Shown here in pieces: positions 5,692-25,463 of a stretch of 26,909 nt of DNA. The stretch comes from a virus. A program made the position numbers and the translations under genes. Location: IMG/VR virus record IMGVR_UViG_3300028844_006872, positions 1 to 26,909 of that record; one strand, 5' to 3'. Below the pieces are notes generated by a model. The model was not told the DNA's origin. It searched no databases and saw only the letters and a list, made by a program, of their open reading frames with translations. The stretch's first letter is position 1. Each line of letters opens with the position of its first letter.

Positions 5692-6894
5692 TTAAGCCTG
5701 TGTCAGGACCATCTTCTTCCAGGCATCTGCCATCAGCTTGTGGCTGATTTCGCCATAGTCGACGCGGAAAGAGGTAGCCCGACGCATCACATAGTTCTCA
5801 ATGGCGGAGTAGGCAGCGTTGACATTGACGATGCGACGAATCGCATAGCGGCTATCAAGCCCGACCACGGTCTGAGCACCAATAACGGCGGTGTCCATCA
5901 GCAGTACTCGCGGAGAAGCGATACCCAGATTCATCACGCTGAACAGGGAATCGATGCGTGGTGAGTTGGGATCGTCAGTCGCGTTGATAGGCTTGCCAAC
6001 ACGATTTTCAATCGCCATCGCGGTGTCAATGTCACACATGATGTGGGATACCGACATGGTGCGGTAGTTATCGCGCAGGAAGTGGATCCACGCTTTCTGG
6101 GTCATCCCGCCTGCTACCTGAGTAGCGTCCAGAGACTTTGCCTCGAAAGCGGTGAGGCCAACGCCATCAGGATCAGTATCGACATCAGCAGTAGCAGCTG
6201 TCATATCGATGATGGCTTCCTCAACAATCCGGATGCGTTCCTGACCGGCCTGCTGTGTCATGGCAATGCCCACCAGGTCAAGCGTAGTAGCTTCCAGCGC
6301 CTGATCTGAAATGGTAAGGCCAATCGCCTTGGTCGGAATCCGGTGGCTGCGTTCTGCCAGCGTGATGGTGACCAGAGCTGACGGCTCTGCCAGCTGAGCG
6401 ATAGGCTGGCTGCGGTATTTGTCGGCCTGCGGAGCAGTGACATTGATCACCGGCTGGTCAACCTTCGGAGAGGTAACAAACGCAGTAGTAGCAATCATGC
6501 TGTCGTAGCCTGCCAGCAAGTCGTCCTTGGACTCAGAGAGCTCACTTTCAATGATCTGCATGATCACTTCAGGGAAAAGCAGTCGACCTGTGACAGTGTT
6601 GTTGCCAGTGCCGTCGTTACGGACGATAGAGGCAGCATCCATCTTGATGTTGCCATCGATGACGGACTTCATTGTCGGCGGGTGAATGCCGGAAGAGCGG
6701 TCGCCGCGAACAAACAGACCGGCCTGAGCCATGCACTGTTCGAAAGTGGTCGGGCCGCCGGCTTGAGACGGGTACTGTGTCTCAAGGTGCTGACTCAAAG
6801 ACTGCTGGTTCTCGCCGGCAGCGCGGTACGCGGTTACATCAAAATCAACTTCCTGACGCGAACCGGTGTGGTCTACAATATTAAATTTAGGCAT
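5692..6894 (-). CDS. Major capsid protein (GpE-like, HK97 fold expected)
   Basis: This 400-residue protein is the shell subunit candidate. I chose ATG 6894 (MPKFNIVDHTGSRQEVDFDV) because GAGGAGG lies 7 bases upstream; a longer frame to 6990 would overlap the preceding decoration gene and lacks a site. About the first 110 residues are polar and may act as a removable scaffold-like arm. The shell-like core starts near TGRLLFPEVIMQIIESELSE and includes a P-domain-like region RSHRIPTKAIGLTISDQALE, the helix QQAGQERIRIVEEAIIDM and the C-terminal motif MRRATSFRVDYGEISHKLMA. Neighbours (protease, scaffold, decoration upstream, connector genes downstream) agree. Family naming is from pattern and order. 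Confidence 0.85.
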   Translation of the reverse strand: MPKFNIVDHTGSRQEVDFDVTAYRAAGENQQSLSQHLETQYPSQAGGPTTFEQCMAQAGLFVRGDRSSGIHPPTMKSVIDGNIKMDAASIVRNDGTGNNTVTGRLLFPEVIMQIIESELSESKDDLLAGYDSMIATTAFVTSPKVDQPVINVTAPQADKYRSQPIAQLAEPSALVTITLAERSHRIPTKAIGLTISDQALEATTLDLVGIAMTQQAGQERIRIVEEAIIDMTAATADVDTDPDGVGLTAFEAKSLDATQVAGGMTQKAWIHFLRDNYRTMSVSHIMCDIDTAMAIENRVGKPINATDDPNSPRIDSLFSVMNLGIASPRVLLMDTAVIGAQTVVGLDSRYAIRRIVNVNAAYSAIENYVMRRATSFRVDYGEISHKLMADAWKKMVLTQA

Positions 6895-6920
6895 TTCAAA
6901 GACCTCCTCAGGCTCGTGGG

Positions 6921-7370
6921 TTAGATGCGTTCCATCAGGATAGTGTCGCCGGCAGCACCGGTTCCTGAAACAATGGCAATACAGCGCCACTTATGGACAG
7001 TGGGCGCACCTGGGTAAACGCGGATAATGCCTGCGGTGCCCTGGGCTATCGGGGTGTCTGCTACAAGCAGCTCACCAACAGCAACGGTGCCTAGTTCGGA
7101 GGCACCAACAACAGCCTCCAGGCGGCGGTTTTTCTGAACCGAGCCAAGGGAGAAGCCATCATTAACAGTAGCAGGCTCGAGAGCAATAACGACACCCTCG
7201 ATCTCTTCGTCCTTTGCCAGTGGGATGTAACCAACTGCAGCAGGGTTGAGCTTGACACCCTTACCTATGTCGTTCTCGACATATTTGTTACTGGAATCGG
7301 CGCCCAGCGGAGTAGAAACAACATCAGCTAACGGATCGTTAACCAGTACGGTGTAATTAAAAACTGTCAT
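6921..7370 (-). CDS. Head decoration protein (lambda gpD-like position)
   Basis: A 149-residue, beta-rich protein encoded immediately before the capsid gene, the place of lambda gpD-type decoration proteins that bind as trimers to the expanded shell. It begins MTVFNYTVLVNDPLADVVST. The central part carries GVKLNPAAVGYIPLAKDEEI, LGTVAVGELLVADTPIAQG and a C-terminal WRCIAIVSGTGAAGDTILME, giving a run of short strands with Gly turns, typical of these proteins. It is a little longer than lambda gpD (110 residues). The start has a GGGGGTTATCTC leader. Size, composition and order agree; there is no catalytic motif. Confidence 0.65.
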   Translation of the reverse strand: MTVFNYTVLVNDPLADVVSTPLGADSSNKYVENDIGKGVKLNPAAVGYIPLAKDEEIEGVVIALEPATVNDGFSLGSVQKNRRLEAVVGASELGTVAVGELLVADTPIAQGTAGIIRVYPGAPTVHKWRCIAIVSGTGAAGDTILMERI

Positions 7371-10365: not shown

Positions 10366-12111
10366 TCACCTCAATATACCTGCTCGGACTGCGTTCTTTT
10401 CGTCAACATTTATTCCGCCAAACCGGGCAGAGACGAAAGTAGGTGGGGCGATAGGCCCCGCGTTGTGTGACAAGTACACCCCTAATTGTATAGCGATCAT
10501 CAGATAATTCAAAGCATTGGCATAATGGTCTGGTCCAGTTCCCACCCAGGCCGACACGGTGTCACCGGTCGCATTATTGTGAGACACGCGTTTCATAGCC
10601 ATCAGGTGAGCCTTGATGGTGCCGGACTCCGGCATGCGGGCAAACCTCACATCGCCTTTATTTACAGCCTTTGAGCAGTCGTCGAACGTGCCCACCTTGT
10701 TGGCCGTGACGATCTGCTCAGCGTCTTTCACGTCCATGTTAGACAAGTTCTTCTTCGATGAGCGCACATAGTAGCACCCCCACGCCTGGTCTACGTAGGC
10801 CTTGGATATGATCTGCGTCACAGAAGTGAAGTCAGGGCCGGCATCGATCACGAGGCGGTTGACCCCGTACCACTTCAGTAACTCCAGCGCCCTATTCACC
10901 AAGTGGTTATCATCATTCTGCACGATTCGCTCGGCATGGATGATGTCTACCCGCTTATTGTCCAGCGGCTTTCCTATCAGCATCCAGCTGGTCTTACCGA
11001 TGTCGAGGCCGGCCACGCACCCGTTTGCAGCGTGCATAGCGGGTGGTACGTGGCTAATGCAGGTGTTGCCCTCGATGGCCGACTCCAGAAAGGAGTTGTC
11101 GGCATCCTCGTAGGGCATGCCCATTTCGAAGTTAACCCAGTCCGCCTTTCGCTCGTACTGTTTGATGGCCCTGATAGTTTTCGGTAACGGATTGATAAAG
11201 GGGACGTCAAAGGGCATCACCTGATAACCGCCGATATCGGCCCCGGGCAAAGCGTGCACCCACTCACGGTTGTCTGTGTCGCCCAGCATCTCAGGCGTTA
11301 ATTCATTGCCGCAGGCGGGGCACTTCAACCAGGCCCCGTCGATGTCATAGCGAGGGTCATTCAGGGAATCCTTTGTCAGTTCAATTAGCTTGTCGTCAAA
11401 CCCGGGTACCACAACATCGTCAAGGAACGTGGGCATGGCGTGCTCATTGCACGTCCCGCACCGAACCGCGTACCTGCCCTGGGTGGACTCATCAAATTCC
11501 GCGCTGATTCCAAAGTTGTCCACCGTCGGGGTTGAGAAGTCGCGTATCCACCCGCCGTCCTGCGCGTGACCGAGGCGACTAAAGAACATGCTCAAGAGGG
11601 ACTGGTTACTGAAGTCAACCTCGTCTCGTATCAACATGTCGGCAGGAATCGAGATGGGTGACGACTGCCCCGACGTGCCGACGATGTACAGGAACGAGGT
11701 GCCAAACTGTTTCAGCTCGCTGCTGTTCGCCCCGGTTGGCACCAGGTCACTCAGTGTCGGTGACGCCTCAACAACGGGGTCGATCCTGGACTTGGCGAAT
11801 TTACCCGCATACTTGGCAGTCGGCAGGGTGTAGATAGCGGTGCTGCCCGGGAAGATGGACAGCATTGCCAGCGAGATCCTGACCGACAGCTCTGACAGGC
11901 CCACCTGGGAACATTTCCGGATCAGTACGTGGTGCCGGGTCTCATTGGCGATGTCGATCTGCATCTCGTGGTCTTTAAACGTCCACGCCTTCTTATTGTT
12001 CTTGGGGTGCCTGGTGTGCTCGCATAGCCACTCCGCCATGCGTGACAGGTCACGGGTCCTTCCGGACGCCACCCGGATGCGTTCAAGAAAGGTGCTTGCT
12101 TGCGAAATCAT
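10366..12111 (-). CDS. Large terminase subunit, GpA family
   Basis: This 581-residue motor/nuclease packages DNA through the portal. Visible elements are a deviant Walker A at residues 66-75 (RKCSQVGLSE, in the position of lambda gpA's own deviant loop), the Walker B with catalytic pair at 158-166 (DMLIRDEVD, Asp163-Glu164), the coupling motif FSTPTVDNFG (192-201), a zinc-finger-like set Cys218/Cys221 and Cys264/Cys267, and the RNase H-like nuclease acids Asp370 (AGLDIGK), Asp423 (VIDAGPD) and Asp528 (GTGPDHY). Length is near the shorter GpA members. The start overlaps the upstream gene's stop (ATGA), so the two are coupled. No small subunit gene is adjacent; the candidate lies about 14 kb upstream. 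Confidence 0.95.
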   Translation of the reverse strand: MISQASTFLERIRVASGRTRDLSRMAEWLCEHTRHPKNNKKAWTFKDHEMQIDIANETRHHVLIRKCSQVGLSELSVRISLAMLSIFPGSTAIYTLPTAKYAGKFAKSRIDPVVEASPTLSDLVPTGANSSELKQFGTSFLYIVGTSGQSSPISIPADMLIRDEVDFSNQSLLSMFFSRLGHAQDGGWIRDFSTPTVDNFGISAEFDESTQGRYAVRCGTCNEHAMPTFLDDVVVPGFDDKLIELTKDSLNDPRYDIDGAWLKCPACGNELTPEMLGDTDNREWVHALPGADIGGYQVMPFDVPFINPLPKTIRAIKQYERKADWVNFEMGMPYEDADNSFLESAIEGNTCISHVPPAMHAANGCVAGLDIGKTSWMLIGKPLDNKRVDIIHAERIVQNDDNHLVNRALELLKWYGVNRLVIDAGPDFTSVTQIISKAYVDQAWGCYYVRSSKKNLSNMDVKDAEQIVTANKVGTFDDCSKAVNKGDVRFARMPESGTIKAHLMAMKRVSHNNATGDTVSAWVGTGPDHYANALNYLMIAIQLGVYLSHNAGPIAPPTFVSARFGGINVDEKNAVRAGILR

Positions 12112-12461: not shown

Positions 12462-13598
12462 TTACTTCAGCCCAAGATACTTGGGCGTTGTTAGCAGGCT
12501 GCCTTCCTTCGCCAGGACGGGCGCGTTTATCGTCTCGTTAATGATGGTGACGCCATTCCACGTACCTGTAAAGATATGGTCGCCAGCCTCATCAATCAGT
12601 TTCCCGTCCCCCCGAACTACTATTTCCCCCGCTGTTACCGTGCTCGCCAGAATTACCTGACCCGCGCCCAGGTCTATGCTCACCGCTGCGACCCCGCTCT
12701 TGTTCGTCAGCTTTAAACCGCCGTTGTAGTTCCTTACCGCGAGCGGTGGGCCGTTGCCCCCGCAGTCTATTGTGGGGGTGCTCGTCCCCGGAACGCCGCT
12801 GTAGCAGTCGAGGAAGTGGGCCGGTTGAGTTCCGCCCAACGTAACTGTATCTTCTAACACGCATGATTCAATAAACCCCCAGATGTACTCTAGCTCTGTC
12901 AACCTGCAATCCTTCAGTACACAATCTCCGTCCAGGATTCCGGTAACGCTTGCCTCGTAAAATTCGCACTTGAGTACGTTGGAGGCATCGCTGATATTGA
13001 GCAGGGATTTAGTCTTGCTCTCCCCGATAAACGTCATGCCGTTATAGTCGCCACCGCTGTCTATAACAGCATCGCCTGTTACGTAGATAACACTGAACCC
13101 CTGCAACCTGGCAATAAACATACCGTCCGCCAGGTTACTGACAGGCTGTCGAGGAGTGCCGGTAGGGTAAATGGTACCGGCAGTCCCGTTAACTACATCC
13201 AACGTTACGCCGCCATTGAAACTGGCGTACTGAATCTCACGGGTCTGAATCAAACCTGCGGAGTTACTGGGGCGTATAGACACCTGGTTGATGTTGGTTA
13301 CATCAGCAATGTTGTTGTTCGATCCTGCGAGGTTTACGGCATACTGCCCATCTTCAAATGTAATAGTATAGCCGTTGATTATTTCAATAATCCGGGCGTA
13401 CTCAATGCCGCCCAGCAGTACCGTACTGTTGTGGGAGTGCGTGTCAGGATTAACCATCCCCTCGGGGCTATCCTCGAGGTTCTTTAGCTGCAGACGGAAC
13501 CAATCGGTGTTCATCTCATAGAGGCTGCCGCCTATGAATGTGATATCGGCCTGCGGGATCGTTATGACCCTGGTGCCCCAGTCGATGCTAATCCCCAT
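12462..13598 (-). CDS. Beta-helix-like phage structural protein
   Basis: This 378-residue protein begins MGISIDWGTRVITIPQADIT. I prefer the ATG at 13598 to the GTG at 13625 because the MGISIDW start matches a widespread phage protein opening and overlaps the stop of the upstream gene by only 11 bases. The N-terminal 115 residues (LYEMNTDWFRLQLKNLEDSP, YARIIEIINGYTITFEDGQY, NNIADVTNINQVSIRPSNS) form a recognisable conserved module found ahead of variable tails. Residues about 160-378 are short strands with Gly/Asn/Asp turns and repeated cysteines, as in right-handed beta-helix fibres. A role as a tail fibre or virion appendage is inferred. No catalytic motif is seen. Confidence 0.6.
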   Translation of the reverse strand: MGISIDWGTRVITIPQADITFIGGSLYEMNTDWFRLQLKNLEDSPEGMVNPDTHSHNSTVLLGGIEYARIIEIINGYTITFEDGQYAVNLAGSNNNIADVTNINQVSIRPSNSAGLIQTREIQYASFNGGVTLDVVNGTAGTIYPTGTPRQPVSNLADGMFIARLQGFSVIYVTGDAVIDSGGDYNGMTFIGESKTKSLLNISDASNVLKCEFYEASVTGILDGDCVLKDCRLTELEYIWGFIESCVLEDTVTLGGTQPAHFLDCYSGVPGTSTPTIDCGGNGPPLAVRNYNGGLKLTNKSGVAAVSIDLGAGQVILASTVTAGEIVVRGDGKLIDEAGDHIFTGTWNGVTIINETINAPVLAKEGSLLTTPKYLGLK

Positions 13599-13794
13599 CT
13601 TTGTATACCGTAGAGCCCATGCCACGCCCGTTCAAATGGGCGGCCATCTGCTTGGTGTTGGCGATCTCCGCACGCAGCGTAGCTACATTTCCTTCCAGCA
13701 GGCTGATCCGGGACTGCAGTTCACTTATAACCTTGCCCTGCTCATTGAGAACATTCTGTATGACCTGAAAATTCTTTTTAGCTGCGTCGTTCAT
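13588..13794 (-). CDS. Coiled-coil microprotein
   Basis: A 68-residue protein starting MNDAAKKNFQVIQNVLNEQG. Residues about 10-52 show a heptad-like pattern (VISELQSRISLLEGNVATLR) and the C-terminus ends HLNGRGMGSTVYKDGD. Two bases separate the upstream stop codon from its ATG, and its end overlaps the next gene by 11 bases, so it is translated in a coupled chain. Short coiled-coil proteins of this kind recur beside fibre and appendage genes in phages, and a trimerisation or assembly-adaptor role is reasonable but unproven. Confidence 0.6.
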   Translation of the reverse strand: MNDAAKKNFQVIQNVLNEQGKVISELQSRISLLEGNVATLRAEIANTKQMAAHLNGRGMGSTVYKDGD

Positions 13795-13796
13795 GG

Positions 13797-15530
13797 CTAC
13801 TCATCCGGTATCAATAAAACGGTTATATCCGTGTCCTGGGTGTTGCTATAGGTACCTGACACAGGAGAGGACTTGTAGTACTTACTGTACGCCTTCGTGG
13901 CCGGGGTTGCAGCCCGTACCTTGCCGGCCAGTGTCTGCGCAGAGCCAAGCGATCTCGTGTCGCTGACCTGCCCGCTGACGTTGGTCTCTACCTTGTTAAT
14001 GTAGGTAGCGGTCTCCCCGGCGTTGGTAACATAAACCATCGCGCCCTCGATCACAGAACCGGTATCGATGTCCTTTACTGTGATTGTCAGGGTGACTTCA
14101 TTGGCCGTAATCTCCAGGGTACCCGTCCCCGTATTGTACACAGTGGGGATCGTCGCGCCTGATGCGACTGAAATCTTCAGTGCGTTGCCAGAGGTTACGT
14201 TAACCTTGATAGCGGCGTTGGCATCTCCCTGGGTACCCGCCGTAGCGGCCTGCGTGCTGCCCTCCCACTCGCTCTGGTTGGTGACACCGTTATCCAGGAT
14301 GTTGTACCAGTTGACCGTGCCGGTCGTGGCATAGGTTCCCATATCCACAGCGTGGCCGGGGGTGGTGGTGCCGTCACCAACAAAGGTGTTCGGGGAATTT
14401 GAGCCAAGGCTACCAAGGGTGGTCGGGGTGGACACTACGGCAGCTGTTGTGGAGATCGTGTCGTCGAATATACACCCGTCCATGATCGCCCCGCCCTGGG
14501 TGATCGTGTTACAGCGCCGGAAGGTGGTCGTCCCGATCGTGTTCGCATTCGTGCCGCCGTTGAATATGAGCGTATCCATGTCGGTAAACGAGCAGCCGTT
14601 AAAGGTAACGGTTGCGTTGTCTACGACCTCGAACTTACCAGAACTGGCGGTGGCCGCCACGGTATTGCCCACCCCTGGGCTGGTGATAATGACGTTGTCC
14701 CACTCCACGTTAGAGCTGGAGTGGTGGATCTCGATCTTGTTGAAATTGGCCGTTACGTTTGGCGTGTTAGCCACGTTAATGGATACGTTGCCATCCCTGA
14801 AATCCACGGAGGTGGCGGCAACGCCAAGCGACATCAGCCCCTGCCAGCGGTAGGCACCGCCGATATTCTGGAACAGGCCATAGCGGGCATTGGTGGAGGT
14901 GTCAAAAGACTCCAGGCCCGCAAAGGTGCCGTAGGAGCCTGCCTGCCCGTCAGTCACCTCGAGCGTGCACCGGCCTACGCGAATAGCGTTCACGGCGGAA
15001 GGGTAGCCACGGGCCTGGGCGGTGGCGTTGGTGGCGATGCCAAAAACATCGTAGGGGGCAGCGCCGGGCGAGCCAACCGTGTCGTCCGCTGACCCAATGG
15101 CCGGGTTAAGGGCGTAGCAGTACCAGCCACCGAGGGGGTTAGGCTCAAAGTCAGACCCACCGCAATCCCAGGCAAGGAAGTCTCCAAGGCTGGCGCCCAC
15201 GAGTACCTTCAACCCGCCGTTGGCGTAGGTGGACAGCGAGGCAGGAGATGCCCAGAAATACCAGATGAGGACAGCGCCATCCGTATCCACGGCATGGGTG
15301 GTCCCCCCGTCGTCGTACATGATGGTGCCCTGTCCGGTCTTGGTGAACTGGGCAGAGATACAGTTCGTATAATTTATATAGAAGTTCGTCTCGTCGCCCG
15401 GGGCGCCGGCGTCATCCCATGCGGCATTGGAGGACTCATCCCACGTGCCGCCATCGGTGCCCGTGTTACCAACAGCAATCTCCCCGCTGTTAGTGGACGT
15501 CAGGTCAGAGTCATACGCCGCGACGGCCAT
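13797..15530 (-). CDS. Long beta-rich appendage protein with C-terminal Ig-like domain
   Basis: A 577-residue protein, very rich in Gly, Thr, Ser, Asn and Asp and poor in Lys, starting MAVAAYDSDLTSTNSGEIAV. The N-terminal third has Trp/Tyr-rich segments (AVLIWYFWASP, NPLGGWYCYALNP) like a lectin-type sandwich. Residues about 230-400 (INVANTPNVTANFNKIEIHH, VTFNGCSFTDMDTLIFNGG) are beta-helix-like, with asparagine/cysteine ladders. The last 85 residues, starting LTITVKDIDTGSVIEGAMVY, look like a carboxypeptidase-regulatory or Ig-like domain and end DITVLLIPDE. GAGGTGACAA precedes the ATG; the start overlaps the upstream cysteine-cluster gene by 20 bases. Likely a virion surface or fibre protein; no enzyme site is seen. 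Confidence 0.6.
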   Translation of the reverse strand: MAVAAYDSDLTSTNSGEIAVGNTGTDGGTWDESSNAAWDDAGAPGDETNFYINYTNCISAQFTKTGQGTIMYDDGGTTHAVDTDGAVLIWYFWASPASLSTYANGGLKVLVGASLGDFLAWDCGGSDFEPNPLGGWYCYALNPAIGSADDTVGSPGAAPYDVFGIATNATAQARGYPSAVNAIRVGRCTLEVTDGQAGSYGTFAGLESFDTSTNARYGLFQNIGGAYRWQGLMSLGVAATSVDFRDGNVSINVANTPNVTANFNKIEIHHSSSNVEWDNVIITSPGVGNTVAATASSGKFEVVDNATVTFNGCSFTDMDTLIFNGGTNANTIGTTTFRRCNTITQGGAIMDGCIFDDTISTTAAVVSTPTTLGSLGSNSPNTFVGDGTTTPGHAVDMGTYATTGTVNWYNILDNGVTNQSEWEGSTQAATAGTQGDANAAIKVNVTSGNALKISVASGATIPTVYNTGTGTLEITANEVTLTITVKDIDTGSVIEGAMVYVTNAGETATYINKVETNVSGQVSDTRSLGSAQTLAGKVRAATPATKAYSKYYKSSPVSGTYSNTQDTDITVLLIPDE

Positions 15531-15852
15531 TTGTCACCTCTACTGTAGCGCCGGCTTTCTCAAAGGCATGGATCTGCCCCTCCAGGTGGGGGTACTCAGT
15601 CCTGCCCTCGTCCAGCGTGCCGTACATGGTGTCCCCCGTCCGCTCCCACACTACGCCGCACCGGTCAGGCCGCAGCGCCGGGTTGCCCCCGGCCTGGTAA
15701 AAAGCGCACTCAAACGCCCGGCACGAAGCCGGGCGGTTCTCGTAGTTCAGGCAGCCGTCAGGTCCCTGGTACTTGCACGCCACGCCTGCGGGCTTGTGCA
15801 GTTCTGGAACCACACAAACCTTACAGCATAGCGTGCAGCTGCCGCATCCCAT
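15511..15852 (-). CDS. YkgJ-type cysteine-cluster (CxxCxxCC) metal-binding protein
   Basis: This 113-residue protein has the pattern C3-x2-C6-x2-C9-C10-x2-C13 at its start (MGCGSCTLCCKVC), then KPAGVACKY (Cys26), DGCLNYENRP (Cys34), SCRAFEC (Cys44, Cys49) and Cys65. This is the zinc/iron-chelating YkgJ layout, in which the cysteines form a metal cluster; the biochemical role of the family is poorly known. It starts directly after the upstream stop codon with no spacer and overlaps the next gene by 20 bases, so it is firmly inside the appendage operon. Its presence between two virion-type genes is unusual. It could modify, metal-load or chaperone a neighbouring surface protein, but that is a guess from context. 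Confidence 0.85.
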   Translation of the reverse strand: MGCGSCTLCCKVCVVPELHKPAGVACKYQGPDGCLNYENRPASCRAFECAFYQAGGNPALRPDRCGVVWERTGDTMYGTLDEGRTEYPHLEGQIHAFEKAGATVEVTNGRRGV

Positions 15853-17898
15853 TTAGGCATCCGAGGTCCGAATTGCCGTAGTAGAGCCGCCAGCAGAACC
15901 GAGCGTACCGGTGGTCTCGAAGGTCTTGATGCCGGTGTTGTCACCGTCGGTACCGCCGTCACGAACACGAATAAACAAGGAGCGATCCGAATCGAACACC
16001 GCGTTGAAGGACACCGAGGTGCCGACCTGGTACACCGTACCGGTACCGCCTGCGTCCGTACCTGTTGCCGTGAAGCGAGTTCCCGGGGTGTCGTTGGCCG
16101 AACCTACAACAGTGTAGTCATCGCTAACGTCCGTCAGGATTTCGTACTCGACACCAACAACAAGGGAGTCGGAGTTAACAACGCTGCCCTGTGCCAGCTC
16201 ATCGATGTAGGAGATGAAGCTATCGTTAGCAGCCGCTGCTGACCAGGTGCCTGCCGCTGTGCAACCGGTAAAGTCGATCTCTCCCGAACCAGCGGTGAAG
16301 CCCGTGTAGTTAATGATCTGGTAGATGCCGTTGGCGTCCAGTACACGGATGGTGCCGGCAGCCGGGGTATCCTTGGCAGAGGGCTGGCCGGTGCCAATGG
16401 TCTCGACGTTGGAGGCCAGAACGACTGTGCCAGCACCTGTGGTCGCGGAGCTAACAGAGCCCGCAGTTACGGTGATCGCTTCGGCAGTTGCTACCTGGCA
16501 CTGGTCTACCTGCAGACCGCCAGAGCCGTCTTCCGGACCCACCAGGACCCGGTCCTCGTCGTGGATAACGCCGCCAACAGAGAAGCTGACGTTGTTCGGC
16601 GGCTGGTAGGTGTTGTTGTCAAGTGCACGGAACAGGTCGCTGTTGGACGTGTCGGCATACTCAATGGCAAAACCGTAAGCACCGATCAATGCGGTACCGG
16701 TTGAGCTACCACAGAACGGAGCAGTAATGGTGCGCTCGGTCGTGGTGCCGTTCGCATAAACAACGGCTGCGGAGGTACCGCCCGTTATTGCCACCCCGTC
16801 AGCTGAGGGTGCGGAGCCTGTCAGGAGCTGAATCCACATCTTCGTGGCAGTGGTGGCATCCGTATCGTCTACGGCAAGCAGCTGACCCGTGCCGCCTGTC
16901 CATGAGACTGCTTCCGGCTGGCCATTGTGGGTACCGCTTGCGGTACCGAAGGTACCGGACTCTGCGCCTGTGCCGCCCAGGGTGATCTCATGGGTGATGC
17001 CACGGAAGATGTTGGCGTCCATGTCGTAGAACGCTGCAGAGTTTGGCGTAGCGTTGGTGCCGGTACCGCCACTCAGTGCGGTCTCGCAAGCCGACAGGTA
17101 TTTCATGCGCTCGTAAAACTGCTTCGAGTTGTACGTGTCCATGTTCCACTCGGAGTAATAGAACTCGTCCGTGGTATCGTTGTTGATGTCGATCGCGTTG
17201 TAGCCCCACGTCACATTGTTAATCGTGCTGCGTGCGCTCGCGTCGGTGGTATCGTTGAGATCGTCTGTGTACGTCAACGCGAGCACGTTATTGCCTCGCG
17301 CAGTACCGTTAACCTTGAACTCCGAATAGGTCTTGCCAATCTCGCGGGTGATACCCACGATACGACGCCCGTCGATAGGGGTGCCGGCATTGTTGACCTT
17401 CAACATAAATCGATGTGAGATACCGTTCGCAGCATCGCGGTTCAGGCCGTGAGAGCCAGCGGTTTCGCCGTTAGGTACATTGTTCCACCAGTCGTCGGTA
17501 AGGACTGCGCCATCCTGGATGATCTGCAAGTCCATGCCTTCCCCGGCGATAACGACCAGGCCATCGTAGATAGAGCCGGTTTGGGCTTCGATGATCGAGC
17601 CATCAAACAGGTGCTCCCATATGGGGTCGCCGCCGCCGACCGTGCCGTCGTCCAGCGTGTAGCCTGCGTTGATCTGAATAATGTTATCGGTCGATCGATC
17701 AGACGGGGTCTCGTTCGTGATGTCGATGAGGTCGTCACCCGAGGAACTGGCGTCATCTGCCAAATCCTGCAGAAATCGATGAAGGTCGATAACCGGGTAA
17801 TATTCTGCCCCTGCCGTAGTGTGGTCCTGGGCGTTAGCCGCGGAGTCATAGTAGATGACCCCCGACGCATTGATTCCAATTCTGTCTGCTATAGCCAT
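15853..17898 (-). CDS. Very large beta-rich phage structural protein
   Basis: A 681-residue protein (ATG 17898, MAIADRIGINASGVIYYDSA; the TTG at 17904 would add two residues). The N-terminal 60 residues contain AEYYPVIDLHRFLQDLADDA, and later IWEHLFDGSIIEAQTGSIYD and ITHEITLGGTGAES. The remainder is a chain of Gly/Thr/Ala/Asp-rich beta modules (GTIRVLDANGIYQIINYTGF, SVSFNAVFDSDRSLFIRVRD). Such proteins occur in phages as large virion or appendage components; I do not know a specific function. Upstream lies a 100-base gap with an inverted repeat; the stop codon abuts the start of the cysteine-cluster gene. Confidence 0.6.
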   Translation of the reverse strand: MAIADRIGINASGVIYYDSAANAQDHTTAGAEYYPVIDLHRFLQDLADDASSSGDDLIDITNETPSDRSTDNIIQINAGYTLDDGTVGGGDPIWEHLFDGSIIEAQTGSIYDGLVVIAGEGMDLQIIQDGAVLTDDWWNNVPNGETAGSHGLNRDAANGISHRFMLKVNNAGTPIDGRRIVGITREIGKTYSEFKVNGTARGNNVLALTYTDDLNDTTDASARSTINNVTWGYNAIDINNDTTDEFYYSEWNMDTYNSKQFYERMKYLSACETALSGGTGTNATPNSAAFYDMDANIFRGITHEITLGGTGAESGTFGTASGTHNGQPEAVSWTGGTGQLLAVDDTDATTATKMWIQLLTGSAPSADGVAITGGTSAAVVYANGTTTERTITAPFCGSSTGTALIGAYGFAIEYADTSNSDLFRALDNNTYQPPNNVSFSVGGVIHDEDRVLVGPEDGSGGLQVDQCQVATAEAITVTAGSVSSATTGAGTVVLASNVETIGTGQPSAKDTPAAGTIRVLDANGIYQIINYTGFTAGSGEIDFTGCTAAGTWSAAAANDSFISYIDELAQGSVVNSDSLVVGVEYEILTDVSDDYTVVGSANDTPGTRFTATGTDAGGTGTVYQVGTSVSFNAVFDSDRSLFIRVRDGGTDGDNTGIKTFETTGTLGSAGGSTTAIRTSDA

Positions 17899-17965
17899 AG
17901 TCAATTACCCGTTATCAAATAAAAGAAACTTTTTTACGTTAGCTAGCCTCTATACCCCTCATCTG

Positions 17966-18000: not shown

Positions 18001-20658
18001 CTACGAGTAGGTGTAGCCAAGTCTGTTGTCCCACACATGGACATAGTCCGCCGAGCCATTGGCCCACTCTTCCGTAACATCGTCATCAGAACCGATAGTG
18101 ATCCGCCGTATCCGCCACAGGGGCTGGTCGTCGGTCACGCCCGGGTCAGCCTCCCCTCGATAGAGAAGAAGGTCTGAAATAAAATCTACTCGCTTGGCTT
18201 GAGCCACTTCTACCTCCGGGTCTGGACAATCACCAGGCTCTGCATCAGGGCAGGGGCCGCAAGGGGCGCCTGTAGAAACTGCCGAAGAACCTGAGTCTGC
18301 GCTAATAATAGCAGCACTGCCGGAAGTCAGCACGCTGCTAGAGCTGGGGAACTTGAGGATAGAAGCACCTTGAGTATTCCCTGGGTCAATAATTGTAGGT
18401 CCGCACCCGGCATAAATGATGTCGCTCCCGCTCGCGATTGACAGGATATCAGCGCACACTTCTCTATCGCCGACAACCAGGAGCCCAATTGCCTCAGCGC
18501 TCCTGATAGCCGTTACGTTAACAGGCCAGTCAGCGGTAACCACGGGGAAACCTACCGATTCAGCACTGGGTATGCCGACAGGAACAACAGGCCCGTCCCC
18601 GGATATAGTAAGTGAGCCAAAGGCCTCAGATGTTTCTATACCCGCAGGAGAAACCGCCCAGCCTGCGGTTACCGCTGCGGTGCCGAAAACCTCGGCACTC
18701 GGGATGCCGGTGGCAACGACATCATTACCAAGGGTTAGGCCCGGGGTGCCGAACACCTCTGCAGAGGGGAGGCCGGTTGCGGTGACTTCCCAGTCTGCGG
18801 ATACGGCAGGGGTGCCAAAGACTTCAGCGGTGGCGATGCCGGTGGGAACAACGAAATCCTCCCCGGATACGGTGAGGGAGCCCACAGCCTCTGCAGAGGC
18901 GATGCCAGCTGTTGTGACTTCCCAGTTTGCGGTTACCGCAGCGGTGCCGAAAACCTCAGAAAAAGCTATACCGGTTGTTGTGATTTCCCAGTCTGCGGAT
19001 ACGGCAGGGGTGCCAAAGACTTCAGCGGTACCTGTCCCGGTTGTTGTGACTTCCCAATCCGCGGTAACAGACTGGGTGCCAAAGACTTCAGCGGTGGCGA
19101 TGCCGGCGGGAACAACGAAACCCTCCCCAGATACGGTGAGGGAGCCCACAGCCTCTGCAGAGGGGAGGCCGGCTGTTGTGACTTCCCAGTCTGCGGTTAC
19201 CGCCGCAGACCCAATGGTCTCGGAACCGGCTATACCGGCAGGTGCTACATCTATTGACACCCCAAACGAGCCGAACCCCTCAGCACTGTCAATCCCCGTC
19301 AAGGTAACAGCCCAACCCGCGCTAACAGACTGGGAACCGAACGCCTCAGCACTGCCGACCCCTGTCAGGGTAACAGGCCAGTCAGCGGTAACCGACTGGG
19401 AACCGAACGCCTCAGCACTGCCGACCCCTGTCAGGGTAACAGGCCAGTCAGCGGTAACCGACTGAGAACCGAACACCTCAGCACTACCGATCCCCGTCAG
19501 GGTAACAGCCCAACCCGCGCTAACAGACTGGGAACCGAGCGCCTCAGCACTGCCGACCCCTGTCAGGGTAACAGGCCAGTCAGCGGTAACCGCCTGGGAA
19601 CCGAACACCTCAGCAGAGGGGATTCCTGTAACCGTTATGGTCCCATCCCCGTATACAGCCAGGGAACCGAACGCCTCAGCACTACCGATCCCCGTCAGGG
19701 TAACAGGCCAGTCCGCGGTAACCGCCGCAGACCCAACGGCCTCTCCGCTGGCTATGCCAGCAGGAGCGACATCTACTGACACACCCGGGTTGCCAAACGC
19801 CTCAGCACTACCGACCCCCGTCAGGGCAACAGCCCAGTCAGCGGTAACCGACTGAGAACCGAACACCTCAGCACTGCCAATCCCCGTCAGGGTAACGGGC
19901 CAGTCAGCGGTAACCGACTGAGAACCGAACACCTCAGCACTACCGATCCCCGTCAGGGCAACAGCCCGATCAACGGCAACCGTCTGGGAACCGAACACCT
20001 CAGCACTGCCGATCCCCGTCAGGGTAACAGCCCAGTCAGAGGTGACCGTCTGGGAACCGAACCCCTCAGCACTGCCGACCCCTGTCAGGGTAACAGGCCA
20101 GTCAGCGGTAACCGACTGAGAACCGAACCCCTCAGCACTACCGATCCCCGTGAGGGAAACAGGCCAGTCAGCGGTAACCGACTGAGAACCGAACACCTCA
20201 GCACTGCCGACCCCCGTCAGGGAAACAGGCCAGTCAGCGGTAACCGTCTGGGAACCGAACACCTCAGCACTGCCGATCCCAGTCAGGGCAACAGGCCAGT
20301 CCGCGGTAACCGACTGAGAACCGAACACCTCAGCACTGCCGATCCCAGTCAGGGCAACAGGCCAGTCCGCGGTAACCGCCTGGGAACCGAACACCTCAGC
20401 ACTGCCAATCCCCGTGAGGGCAACAGGCCAGTCAGCGGTAACCGCCTGGGAACCGAACTCCTCAGCACTGCCAATCCCTGTCAGGGTAACAGCCCAATCC
20501 GCGGTGACAGACTGGGAACCGAACACCTCAGCACTACCGATCCCCGTCAGGGCAACAGCCCAGTCAGCGGCAGCCGTCGGTAAACCAACCGCTGCCAAAT
20601 AACCGCTGGCTTCAGGTAACTCTGAGTCAGCGGTCACCAATGCAGAGTCAGCGGTCAC
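18001..20658 (-). CDS. 22-residue-repeat surface protein, main open frame (5' end displaced by frameshift)
   Basis: A GTG at 20658 would give 885 residues, but this is likely the downstream part of a longer gene that begins at 21142. About 31 units near 22 residues follow one another, with core SAE-x-FGS, a TADW-x-V segment and an LTG-[IV]-G end. Units near the N-terminus are almost identical; those nearer the C-terminus diverge (for example TAEVFGTPAVSADWE and SGEGFVVPAGI). After about residue 720 the repeats stop and a Cys/Pro segment (APCGPCPDAEPGDCPDPEVE) leads to a conserved terminal domain beginning AKRVDFISDLLLYRGEADPG, with WRIRRITIGS and HVWDNRLGYTYS, which I recognise as a common small phage structural module. 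Probably a fibrous adhesin or surface spacer. Confidence 0.65.
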   Translation of the reverse strand: MTADSALVTADSELPEASGYLAAVGLPTAAADWAVALTGIGSAEVFGSQSVTADWAVTLTGIGSAEEFGSQAVTADWPVALTGIGSAEVFGSQAVTADWPVALTGIGSAEVFGSQSVTADWPVALTGIGSAEVFGSQTVTADWPVSLTGVGSAEVFGSQSVTADWPVSLTGIGSAEGFGSQSVTADWPVTLTGVGSAEGFGSQTVTSDWAVTLTGIGSAEVFGSQTVAVDRAVALTGIGSAEVFGSQSVTADWPVTLTGIGSAEVFGSQSVTADWAVALTGVGSAEAFGNPGVSVDVAPAGIASGEAVGSAAVTADWPVTLTGIGSAEAFGSLAVYGDGTITVTGIPSAEVFGSQAVTADWPVTLTGVGSAEALGSQSVSAGWAVTLTGIGSAEVFGSQSVTADWPVTLTGVGSAEAFGSQSVTADWPVTLTGVGSAEAFGSQSVSAGWAVTLTGIDSAEGFGSFGVSIDVAPAGIAGSETIGSAAVTADWEVTTAGLPSAEAVGSLTVSGEGFVVPAGIATAEVFGTQSVTADWEVTTTGTGTAEVFGTPAVSADWEITTTGIAFSEVFGTAAVTANWEVTTAGIASAEAVGSLTVSGEDFVVPTGIATAEVFGTPAVSADWEVTATGLPSAEVFGTPGLTLGNDVVATGIPSAEVFGTAAVTAGWAVSPAGIETSEAFGSLTISGDGPVVPVGIPSAESVGFPVVTADWPVNVTAIRSAEAIGLLVVGDREVCADILSIASGSDIIYAGCGPTIIDPGNTQGASILKFPSSSSVLTSGSAAIISADSGSSAVSTGAPCGPCPDAEPGDCPDPEVEVAQAKRVDFISDLLLYRGEADPGVTDDQPLWRIRRITIGSDDDVTEEWANGSADYVHVWDNRLGYTYS

Positions 20659-21076
20659 CTGGTCGGCGCCGCCAACCCCTACTGGGAAAACAGCCCCGTC
20701 AGCGGTAACCGACGGTGAACCGAACGCTTCAGCACTGGCGATGCCGGTGGGCGCGACATCTACCGATACGCCCGGCGAGCCGAACGCCTCAGCACTACCG
20801 ATCCCCGTCAGGGTAACGGGCCAGTCAGCGGTAACCGCCTGGGAACCGAACGCCTCAGCACTACCGATCCCCGTCAGGGTAACGGGCCAGTCAGCGGTAA
20901 CCGCCTGGGAACCGAACGCCTCAGCACTACCGATCCCCGTCAGGGTAACGGGCCGTAACCGTTATGGTCCCATCCCCGTATACAGCCAGGGAACCGAACG
21001 CCTCAGCACTACCGATCCCCGTCAGGGTAACGGGCCAGTCAGCGGTAACCGTTTGGGAACCGAACGCCTCGGCACT
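18480..21076 (-). repeat. Tandem array of about 66-bp coding repeats
   Basis: Roughly 37 head-to-tail units of 66 bp (a few of 60 bp) encode the SAE-x-FG repeat protein. Three adjacent units around 20788-20950 are nearly identical copies. A composite segment with TITVT coding sequence occurs both at about 19628-19710 and at 20955-21035 with long identity, showing block copying inside the array. There are no unique spacers, so it is not CRISPR. Confidence 0.9.
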
Positions 21077-23231: not shown

Positions 23232-24356
23232 TTAAAAAGAAGTGCCCACCGCCAATCCAAAATCCATGTCTCGTGGCCAAATATTGTGGGTGGAATTACT
23301 TGCCGTGTAAACCATCATCCAAACGCCGGGTTCACCATTAACGCCCGCACCCACTTCAATAGGTCTTGCAATAGATATTAGCCCATTATCCCATTGAACA
23401 CCCTTCAAGCCATTGAGAAGCAGCGGTCTCATATATTTAAATGTTTTACCATAATCGTCAGAACACCAGAGTTCAAGCGGTCCCAACTGATATGCAATTG
23501 AATGCCCTACCCAAGAATTGTATCTGTTTACGGCAGCCCATAGACGATTTGCGTACGGCCATATCTTTATGTCATAGAACTGTTTGGTTGCACCGTCTGT
23601 TCCCATTGCTTGTGCATTGAAATCAGCGATCACTCCTTGGTCCGTGAATGTGCTGGTGAGACTATTGGTGGCAGACTCATAGTAGCCTATGGAACGCCTA
23701 TTAATATCATGATCCTGTGAATAATACATGCGCCAAACATCGAGATGCTCCACGTATATTAAACATTTTGCTTCACAGGAAGTGGCGCCGTGAGAGGCCA
23801 CCAATATGGGAGTAGAGACATAATCAAAATTTAAACCATCCGTGGAGTCATAAACCATATTGGAAGTAGGAGTCTTAATAACCATAAGCCAATAGGAAGC
23901 TCCAGTCCTTAGTAAATCAACGACTTCATGGCCTTGATGAATGACCGTGAGATTATTGTTTGTTGTGTCGTCGCCGCCTTGAGCGGCGGTGTGAGTTATT
24001 GCACCGATATTCGGCTTTGTCCAATTCAAGAGATCCGGACTTGTCGCTATGGCGGGTCCATATATACTGCTAGTCGAATAAGCAATGTATGCCATACGAA
24101 ACGTGCCGTCCACATCCTGCGTCACATTGGCACCGTAAACATAATTATCCCAGGCATCTCTGGGAAATTTCGAATCTACAATTCTGCCTCGATAAATTTC
24201 GCTTGCGCCTTTAGCAAGGTGTTTGACCATTGTATGGTCATGCATGGCACCTAGACTTGAGACTTCACTACGTTTGTCCAATTCGGAAATCACGTCATAA
24301 TTCTCTTCAGATCTGTTACGGTCTCCGTAAAAATTTTCTTTATATAATGTAGCCAT
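23232..24356 (-). CDS. Glycosidase-like five-bladed beta-propeller protein, copy 2
   Basis: A 374-residue paralogue of the preceding gene. An N-terminal helical segment (about residues 1-60) is followed by propeller-like repeats: FPRDAWDNYVYGANVTQDVD (64-83), GPAIATSPDLLNWTKP (100-115), THTAAQGGDDTTNNNL (121-136), YDSTDGLNFDYVS, QFYDIKIWPY and LGPLELWCSDDYGKTF. These are typical of GH43/GH32-like propellers. Residues equivalent to catalytic acids may be Asp67 or Asp70 in RDAWD, Glu195 in CEAKC and Asp262 in QFYD; each has a match in the paralogue. No signal peptide or membrane segment. The gene is visibly richer in A+T than most of the window. A tailspike-like host-polysaccharide enzyme or lectin is inferred. 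AGGAGTGACAG precedes the start. Confidence 0.65.
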   Translation of the reverse strand: MATLYKENFYGDRNRSEENYDVISELDKRSEVSSLGAMHDHTMVKHLAKGASEIYRGRIVDSKFPRDAWDNYVYGANVTQDVDGTFRMAYIAYSTSSIYGPAIATSPDLLNWTKPNIGAITHTAAQGGDDTTNNNLTVIHQGHEVVDLLRTGASYWLMVIKTPTSNMVYDSTDGLNFDYVSTPILVASHGATSCEAKCLIYVEHLDVWRMYYSQDHDINRRSIGYYESATNSLTSTFTDQGVIADFNAQAMGTDGATKQFYDIKIWPYANRLWAAVNRYNSWVGHSIAYQLGPLELWCSDDYGKTFKYMRPLLLNGLKGVQWDNGLISIARPIEVGAGVNGEPGVWMMVYTASNSTHNIWPRDMDFGLAVGTSF

Positions 24357-24365
24357 CTGTCACTC

Positions 24366-25463
24366 CTATATCGATGCCAGGCCGAAAGACGTCTGGCTGA
24401 CATTCACGTCCCAATCCCAGTGTAAATCATTACGCCCACCGTAAATCAGCTGCCATCTGCCGTTCACCAAGAGTGGTCTGCCTACATTTACGAGACCAAA
24501 ATCCCAAACTCCGCCGATCGCGCCGTTGTACAGCATGTTTCTTTGAAATTCCCACGTGACCATGCGATCGTTGGACCGCCAAAGCTCCAATGGCCCGAGT
24601 CGATCTGTACTGTAATTGTAAATGGGCACACATGCCCAAACGACGCCGGAACCCAATGGATATTCCCACGCCTGAAAATCATAGAATTGACGATTGGGAT
24701 TGTCATCACAAGTGAATTCAGGGATGAGCCCTAAATCAGTATAGGAACCCGCAATTCCTGTACTGCTGTAACGCCGACTGATGGAACGTCTGCCGCCCGA
24801 GGGTTGCACGTTGACGCCGTCTCCGACATCGGCATGACCTTCAGAAGTGAACACGTAATGTCCGGGATCACAGGCCAGAAAGGACTTGGGTTCAAAATAG
24901 CCACCGCGTATGGCTTGATCTCTGTCGACCACCTCACCAAGATAAGTGCTGAAATCGCGACCGTCCGTGGAAGAATAAAGCAATCCTGAATCAGGAGAGT
25001 GCATCAGAAGATAATAAGTGCCGTCGATGAGCTGCAGATCGGTACCGCCGTATTGAGGACCGTGATATATAATTAAATTATTGTTGGAGGTGTCATCGCC
25101 GCCTTGAGCGGCGGTGTGCGTCACGTCATTTAAAACCGGCTTTGTCCACTGATAAAGATCGGTGCTCTCCGCTATGGCTGGACCTGAATCACCGTTCGTC
25201 GAATATGCTCTGTACAACATCGTGAAAGTGCCGTCCGCGTTCTGCACCACGGAGCCGCCGTAGATTCCCAGATCCCACGCATCTCTGGGAAGTCCCGACG
25301 AATTACTGACAATTTTTCCGACATTGTTTGTGGTCCATCCCAAATCCTGCCCATATTTTCTGAACGGGAGTGTGGCCAGGGCGGTGGCATTGAAAGCTTC
25401 TCGCCATTTGGATTTCTCATAATCCAGTTTATTTTTCGATAAGACGTCGGAGATAATGCTCAT
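24366..25463 (-). CDS. Glycosidase-like five-bladed beta-propeller protein, copy 1
   Basis: A 365-residue protein. After a charged N-terminal helix (MSIISDVLSKNKLDYEKSKW) come propeller motifs: LPRDAWDLGIYGGSVVQNAD (58-77), GPAIAESTDLYQWTKP (94-109), THTAAQGGDDTSNNNL (115-130), LLYSSTDGRDFSTYLG, FEPKSFLACDPGHYVFTSEG (190-209), QFYDFQAWEYP (259-269) and LGPLELWRSNDRMVTWEFQR. The AESTDLYQWTKP type is a hallmark of GH43/GH32-like arabinan, fructan or related glycosidase blades. Putative acids are Asp61 or Asp64, Glu191 and Asp262. The two paralogues share blade order but differ in the N-terminal 50 residues. It likely attacks or binds a host surface glycan. AGGAGTGATATATAA precedes the ATG. Confidence 0.7.
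   Translation of the reverse strand: MSIISDVLSKNKLDYEKSKWREAFNATALATLPFRKYGQDLGWTTNNVGKIVSNSSGLPRDAWDLGIYGGSVVQNADGTFTMLYRAYSTNGDSGPAIAESTDLYQWTKPVLNDVTHTAAQGGDDTSNNNLIIYHGPQYGGTDLQLIDGTYYLLMHSPDSGLLYSSTDGRDFSTYLGEVVDRDQAIRGGYFEPKSFLACDPGHYVFTSEGHADVGDGVNVQPSGGRRSISRRYSSTGIAGSYTDLGLIPEFTCDDNPNRQFYDFQAWEYPLGSGVVWACVPIYNYSTDRLGPLELWRSNDRMVTWEFQRNMLYNGAIGGVWDFGLVNVGRPLLVNGRWQLIYGGRNDLHWDWDVNVSQTSFGLASI

Follow-up and report, generated by a model that had tools for sequence, protein, structure and literature searches.

Among proteins whose cysteine motif resembles that of the locus considered here, the flagellin lysine N-methyltransferase FliB is the best studied. It carries one [4Fe–4S] cluster, depends on SAM and reducing conditions, and possesses eight conserved cysteines (PMC8598068). 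Exposed lysines of flagellin are methylated by FliB before assembly and without a sequence consensus, and its cysteine motif, CX4CX3CC, is set beside PF03692 in the same work (PMC8598068). The latter family, that of YkgJ (PF03692, UPF0153; E. coli YkgJ), comprises small proteins in which a CxxCxxCC motif close to the N-terminus precedes a C.IY..RP..CR block. On the phage side, a 2026 report describes methylated virion proteins, a tail fibre included, in phages for which no methyltransferase gene is known (PMC13288928). A literature search found no paper on phage YkgJ proteins; one vibriophage ORF has been annotated with a YkgJ domain, without a study of it.

The DNA analysed here, in the following referred to as the window, is the whole 26,909-nucleotide stretch of IMG/VR virus record IMGVR_UViG_3300028844_006872. 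On its minus strand, a ykgJ-like ORF runs from 15852 to 15511, starts with ATG and encodes 113 residues with ten cysteines (MGCGSCTLCCKVC... / MGCGSCTLCCKVCVVPELHKPAGVACKYQGPDGCLNYENRPASCRAFECAFYQ...). The gene and its surroundings are as follows.

5692-6990, minus strand: major capsid protein (phrog_3922)
10366-12111, minus strand: terminase large subunit (phrog_675, E=3e-103)
12462-13625, minus strand: gene of a 387-aa protein, homologues of which often lie at +2 to +4 after the fibre gene
13797-15530, minus strand: fibre-like virion gene, 577 aa, with predicted N-terminal beta-sandwich and beta-helix-like region; the conserved partner of ykgJ
15511-15530, minus strand: overlap of the ykgJ 3' end and the start of the fibre-like gene, 20 nt, read from the sequence; the two ORFs overlap in 56 of 60 pairs (see below)
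15511-15852, minus strand: ykgJ-like gene, 113 aa, eight family-invariant cysteines and two others (PHROG 9155, E=3.3e-8)
15664-15672, minus strand: RPD motif, residues 61-63, invariant in 25 homologues
15706-15777, minus strand: second cysteine block, residues 26-49, with Cys 26, 34, 44 and 49 invariant
15823-15846, minus strand: CxxCxxCC motif, residues 3-10 (CGSCTLCC), with Cys 3, 6, 9 and 10 invariant in 25 homologues
15853-17904, minus strand: upstream gene of a predicted 683-aa virion protein, less tightly linked to ykgJ
18001-20658, minus strand: minor-tail-family protein, 885 aa

The TAA stop of the upstream gene abuts the ykgJ ATG with 0 nt between them, and the start of the downstream ORF lies inside ykgJ, preceded by a good Shine–Dalgarno-like AGAGGTG. 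The preliminary description had reported, with no strand given, a complete CxxCxxCC protein with at least ten cysteines, placed directly after one stop and overlapping the next start, and all of this is present. Its term "virion operon" is likewise reasonable, as terminase large subunit, major capsid protein and minor-tail-family protein are encoded on the same strand. A sequencing error can be dismissed because a second IMG/VR contig of 7.6 kb (L001) carries the same DNA across the region at 100% identity. The ORF is moreover far beyond chance expectation, since 25 homologues with only 27-42% identity to the window protein all retain the eight cysteines and the RPD motif.

Assignment to a family is less straightforward. 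The window protein scores 9 bits against PF03692 (E=3.1), below the Pfam cut-off of 23 bits; among 25 relatives, six match this profile at E<=0.1, the best at 9.8e-4. A match to the HMM of PHROG 9155, itself without assigned function, covers residues 3-73. The second cysteine block reads C26, GC34-x-x-Y-x-x-RP-x-x-C44-R-x-x-x-C49, and the relatives share an architecture of CxxCxxCC, C26, a GC-x-Y-xx-RP-xx-C-xxxx-C block and RPD. When the viral family was compared with a profile of chromosomal YkgJ-type PF03692 proteins, E. coli YkgJ included, the C.IY..RP..CR block aligned with a probability of 90% over a span of just ~15 columns; by eye, CxxCxxCC precedes this block in both groups. Based on the sub-cut-off score, the PHROG 9155 match and the common block, we therefore describe the window protein as a divergent member-like relative of the CxxCxxCC superfamily, outside Pfam membership. 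It differs from PF03692 in a shorter spacer between the two cysteine blocks, in the added RPD motif and C-terminal beta-beta-alpha-beta part, and in being phage-borne and coupled to a virion gene. An NCBIfam search of 25 family members gave no match of note, a PDB sequence search nothing convincing, and a search of the YkgJ model against PDB structures no meaningful match (best Z 5.0, uninformative). With its eight invariant cysteines the protein probably binds metal, zinc or iron being the candidates.

The family had been considered known mainly from cellular genomes, a view that does not hold: one scan of viral contigs yielded 273 viral relatives, and others were found in cyanophages and a Rhizobium phage, on Methylobacterium, Azospirillum and Neorhizobium plasmids, and on Methylobacterium, Bradyrhizobium and Burkholderiaceae contigs. 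The proteins of cyanophages S-ShM2, Syn30 and S-CAM3 and gene 109 of Rhizobium phage RHph_Y1_11 share the same eight cysteines and an RPD-like motif; they lie among replication, clamp and DNA-methylase genes, away from this fibre. Outside the clade of the window the neighbours are mixed in general (sliding clamp, Dam methylase, integrase, SSB, portal, tail, terminase). In E. coli K-12, ykgJ (L186:4354-4683) directly follows the fimbrial ecp genes (ecpD adhesin, ecpE chaperone) on the same strand, another YkgJ adjoining a surface-fibre operon, perhaps by coincidence.

Neither of the proteins flanking YkgJ (577 aa and 683 aa) matched a PHROG or Pfam family. One relative of the 577-aa protein matches a "virion structural protein" PHROG, and "fibre" is used here as a working name. 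Its predicted model (pLDDT 70) is beta-rich throughout. Its N-terminal part forms a sandwich similar to carbohydrate-binding domains and to the turret of Haloferax tailed virus 1, and the stacked short strands that come next recall a beta-helix; all of these are weak matches. Among annotated phages, virus Rctr197k gave the sole fibre match and is devoid of YkgJ. Homologues of the upstream 683-aa protein occupy position -1 of YkgJ at three loci (L009, L017, L021) and also precede fibres without YkgJ, e.g. at L095-L097. A two-way link of YkgJ with this protein was considered and set aside, the association being weaker, with fewer adjoining loci. The proposed conserved place between two beta-rich proteins thus stands for the downstream partner, whereas the implied symmetry does not, as upstream homologues adjoin fewer YkgJ genes.

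The pairing with the fibre gene was seen from both search directions, in strong agreement with the expectation that YkgJ genes would adjoin fibre genes in other phages. Starting from YkgJ, a fibre homologue lies directly downstream at 19 of 79 other viral loci, and these 19 are all close relatives (two have tandem YkgJ genes); starting from the fibre alone, with YkgJ unused, 30 loci were found, and YkgJ is immediately upstream in 20 of them. In the set as enlarged by further scans, an intact YkgJ immediately precedes 60 distinct fibres, and 43 others have none. Sub-clade fibre alignments were used for scanning the collection, because a single fibre alignment is too diverse. The two ORFs overlap in 56 of the 60 pairs. 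No intact YkgJ copy has lost any of the cysteines, the loss of which had been named as a check on the family; CxxCxxCC and RPD are kept throughout and the full eight-cysteine spacing in 55/60. Two further loci carry YkgJ remnants upstream of the fibre: in L113 (G058; 1724-2003) residues 31-81 are lost, and in L314 (2907-3014) just about the first 22 residues with the CxxCxxCC start are left. A search of whole records for YkgJ in trans, in phages that lack the neighbour, found none save the broken copy of L113, many of these records being fragments.

The phages concerned, most of them uncultured, differ widely in their cores. When the terminase large subunit and major capsid protein of the window were used as queries, 0 of 33 other fibre-carrying records (30 with YkgJ) matched, one marginal terminase hit aside, while the positive control (G000) returned the window's own two proteins. 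The records searched range from 9 to 203 kb, a size exceeded by the Thermoplasmata MAG from which L116 comes. Simple shared ancestry of these phages, with core genes in common, was rejected on this basis. That the gene pair persists among such non-matching cores suggests functional coupling. L116 itself, a 27.6-kb phage-like contig of that MAG, encodes YkgJ and fibre together with a capsid-like gene and several tail-like ones; either it is a phage that was binned wrongly, or the module also occurs in an archaeal virus.

Within the fibre, the presence of YkgJ is tracked by a single residue:

15339-15341, minus strand: codon AAG of fibre Lys64 (K64), in the turn that joins predicted strands 57-59 and 67-73

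The turn lysine was first seen in a comparison of 40 fibres with and without YkgJ, in which it occurred mostly alongside YkgJ. An unbiased test of 1,237 column-by-residue combinations placed K64 first by strength of association (47/59 with YkgJ vs 5/43 without, p=4e-12). Allowing for a shift of one to two columns, the lysine is present in 55/60 fibres with YkgJ vs 5/43 without (p=3e-17), and the new sequences taken separately gave 28/29 vs 5/34 (p=1.2e-11). The fibre of L021, misaligned by the program and outside the new set, was scored by eye as lysine-containing in the later all-sequence tests. Lysines are scarce in these proteins: the window fibre has four in 420 residues, K64 among them, and the fibres of L042 and L048 have two in 420 aa, one of which is at the K64 site. 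Other conserved fibre lysines (columns 174 and 230) show far weaker tracking of YkgJ and are lost in the window. L334 and L105 have neither YkgJ nor the lysine and stand beside relatives having both. The exceptions are four YkgJ-linked fibres without the lysine (L007, L008, L068, L093) and five fibres with it and no detectable YkgJ (L281, L294, L298, L302, L316); the genes upstream of these five comprise small helical or membrane proteins and the 683-aa family, and no replacement enzyme is shared among them. The fibre following the fresh ykgJ remnant of L314 still has its turn lysine, as expected for a recent loss of ykgJ. Fibre cysteines were rejected as YkgJ target, given that Cys313 and Cys340 are conserved with or without YkgJ. 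As a separate observation, L007 and L008 (6001-6886 each) have tandem ykgJ genes before one fibre gene that lacks the turn lysine.

Together, these data suggest that YkgJ probably modifies or matures the fibre at the loop lysine. The preliminary description had envisaged a role in making or modifying a neighbour, and for the downstream fibre the covariation lends support to it. In mechanistic terms, a small cytoplasmic CxxCxxCC protein would bind metal via its eight invariant cysteines, most likely as a [4Fe–4S] cluster. It would be translated together with the adjacent fibre, meeting the nascent chain via translational coupling, and act ahead of assembly. The target would be one exposed turn of the N-terminal beta-sandwich, the lysine of which (K64 in the window) would most likely be modified, e.g. 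by methylation, as FliB does to surface lysines of flagellin. Taken as a whole, this sequence, from metal binding to an action on the K64 turn that most likely modifies the lysine, is put forward tentatively, at a little under even probability. We infer the type of metal, the physical contact between YkgJ and fibre, the lysine modification and its identity as methylation. Against this reading stand the lysine exceptions in both directions, the small size and divergent cysteine spacing of the protein (see below), and the many fibres that do without YkgJ.

The comparison with FliB is instructive in both directions. Both proteins have eight conserved cysteines. FliB acts on exposed lysines of an extracellular filament protein prior to assembly, and the window protein is proposed to act on a turn lysine of the fibre, with which the presence of its gene covaries. 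Conversely, the window protein has a CX2CX2CC spacing in place of CX4CX3CC; FliB is larger and chromosomal in Enterobacteriaceae, whereas the phage proteins measure 110-150 aa and have no known SAM-binding domain. Methylase activity has been demonstrated for FliB and would be a prediction for the window protein, which was compared with it through its published description. As the motif spacing differs, we do not assign the window protein FliB status. By analogy, the chemistry would most likely be that of a minimal iron–sulphur lysine-modifying factor. A more specific version, in which a minimal (~110-150 aa) iron–sulphur enzyme serves one lysine of one fibre-like protein, as a phage counterpart of flagellin methylation and a mobile two-gene module among unrelated terminases and capsids, is more doubtful, with a chance of roughly one in three.

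For YkgJ/CxxCxxCC proteins the locus offers a specific and falsifiable substrate and residue. As a candidate for a modifier encoded by the phage itself, ykgJ shares an operon with its putative target; if this is true, phages would tune a fibre surface by post-translational modification. Methylation of virion proteins has already been reported (PMC13288928); new here is a phage-encoded candidate modifier paired with its putative substrate.

The main rival is a non-enzymatic one, in which YkgJ serves the fibre as a dedicated chaperone or assembly factor, binding its lysine turn without altering it chemically. The lysine would be a contact residue and the metal would merely hold the protein together. 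In other phages, fibre chaperones are known to be encoded by small helper genes that adjoin the fibre genes. Linkage, ORF overlap and covariation fit this explanation equally, as a contact lysine would covary with its binding partner. Conversely, the covariation is centred on one residue type, lysine, while the adjoining loop residues vary freely, and eight invariant cysteines would exceed the usual structural need of a fold this size. We judge a chaperone role unlikely, with something like a one-in-four chance.

Cassette hitch-hiking, by which ykgJ and fibre spread side by side and the lysine association reflects inheritance rather than function, is improbable in comparison. It draws on the YkgJ tree, where 27 of the 34 fibre-linked YkgJs, the window included, fall in one clade (support 100/99), on the many phages that carry fibres without YkgJ, and on the small number of independent contrasts. 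Indeed, an independent-pair sign test gave five supported contrasts and no opposite ones, and is not significant because there are just five. Against this, a Pagel-type test for correlated evolution of lysine and YkgJ, on a tree from which the loop columns were left out, gave LR 38.7 (p=8e-8). In the same test 60 random traits reached a mean of 4.8 and a maximum of 13.9, and the 45 strongest other traits a best LR of 23.5, the strict single-column K64 (32.0) being set aside; the loop lysine is thus above all 105 control traits. Moreover, the best tree requires ~10 changes for YkgJ and 8 for the lysine. Functional coupling of YkgJ and fibre, as judged from these comparative data, is well supported, irrespective of the chemistry.

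That YkgJ might itself belong to the virion as a minor component, in the form of a metal-stabilised knob attached to the fibre, would agree with its site in the virion gene block and with the 1:1 gene pairing. This is very improbable, since a reduced, cysteine-rich protein of the CxxCxxCC type would be expected in the reducing cytoplasm, and related copies occur in non-structural contexts (clamp, Dam methylase, integrase). Least probable of all is an accessory gene that acts on the metal or redox state of the host, as also raised in the preliminary description, and is located here by chance. Outside the clade of the window, family members do occur in a wide range of phage modules, but the tight pairing with one fibre family despite non-matching terminase and capsid proteins, the ORF overlap and the lysine covariation would be left unexplained.

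Some further features of the window should be noted. As listed, the major capsid ORF opens with a GTG that lies within the gene before it; translation more likely begins with a Met near residue 33 (MPKFNIVDHTG). At 19271-20954, a very long 66-bp tandem repeat of ~26 copies encodes SVTADWPVTLTGIGSAEVFGSQ-type repeats in the 885-aa minor-tail-family protein. The array passes the listed start of this protein (gene and array together span 18001-20954) and enters the region of a tRNA-Arg (ACG) predicted by ARAGORN at 20896-20988 on the minus strand, which is partly within the array and may be spurious. Finally, 23232-24356 and 24366-25463 are tandem paralogues, 35% identical and of a beta-propeller/glycosidase-like type (weak BNR repeat hit), which are possible tail spikes.
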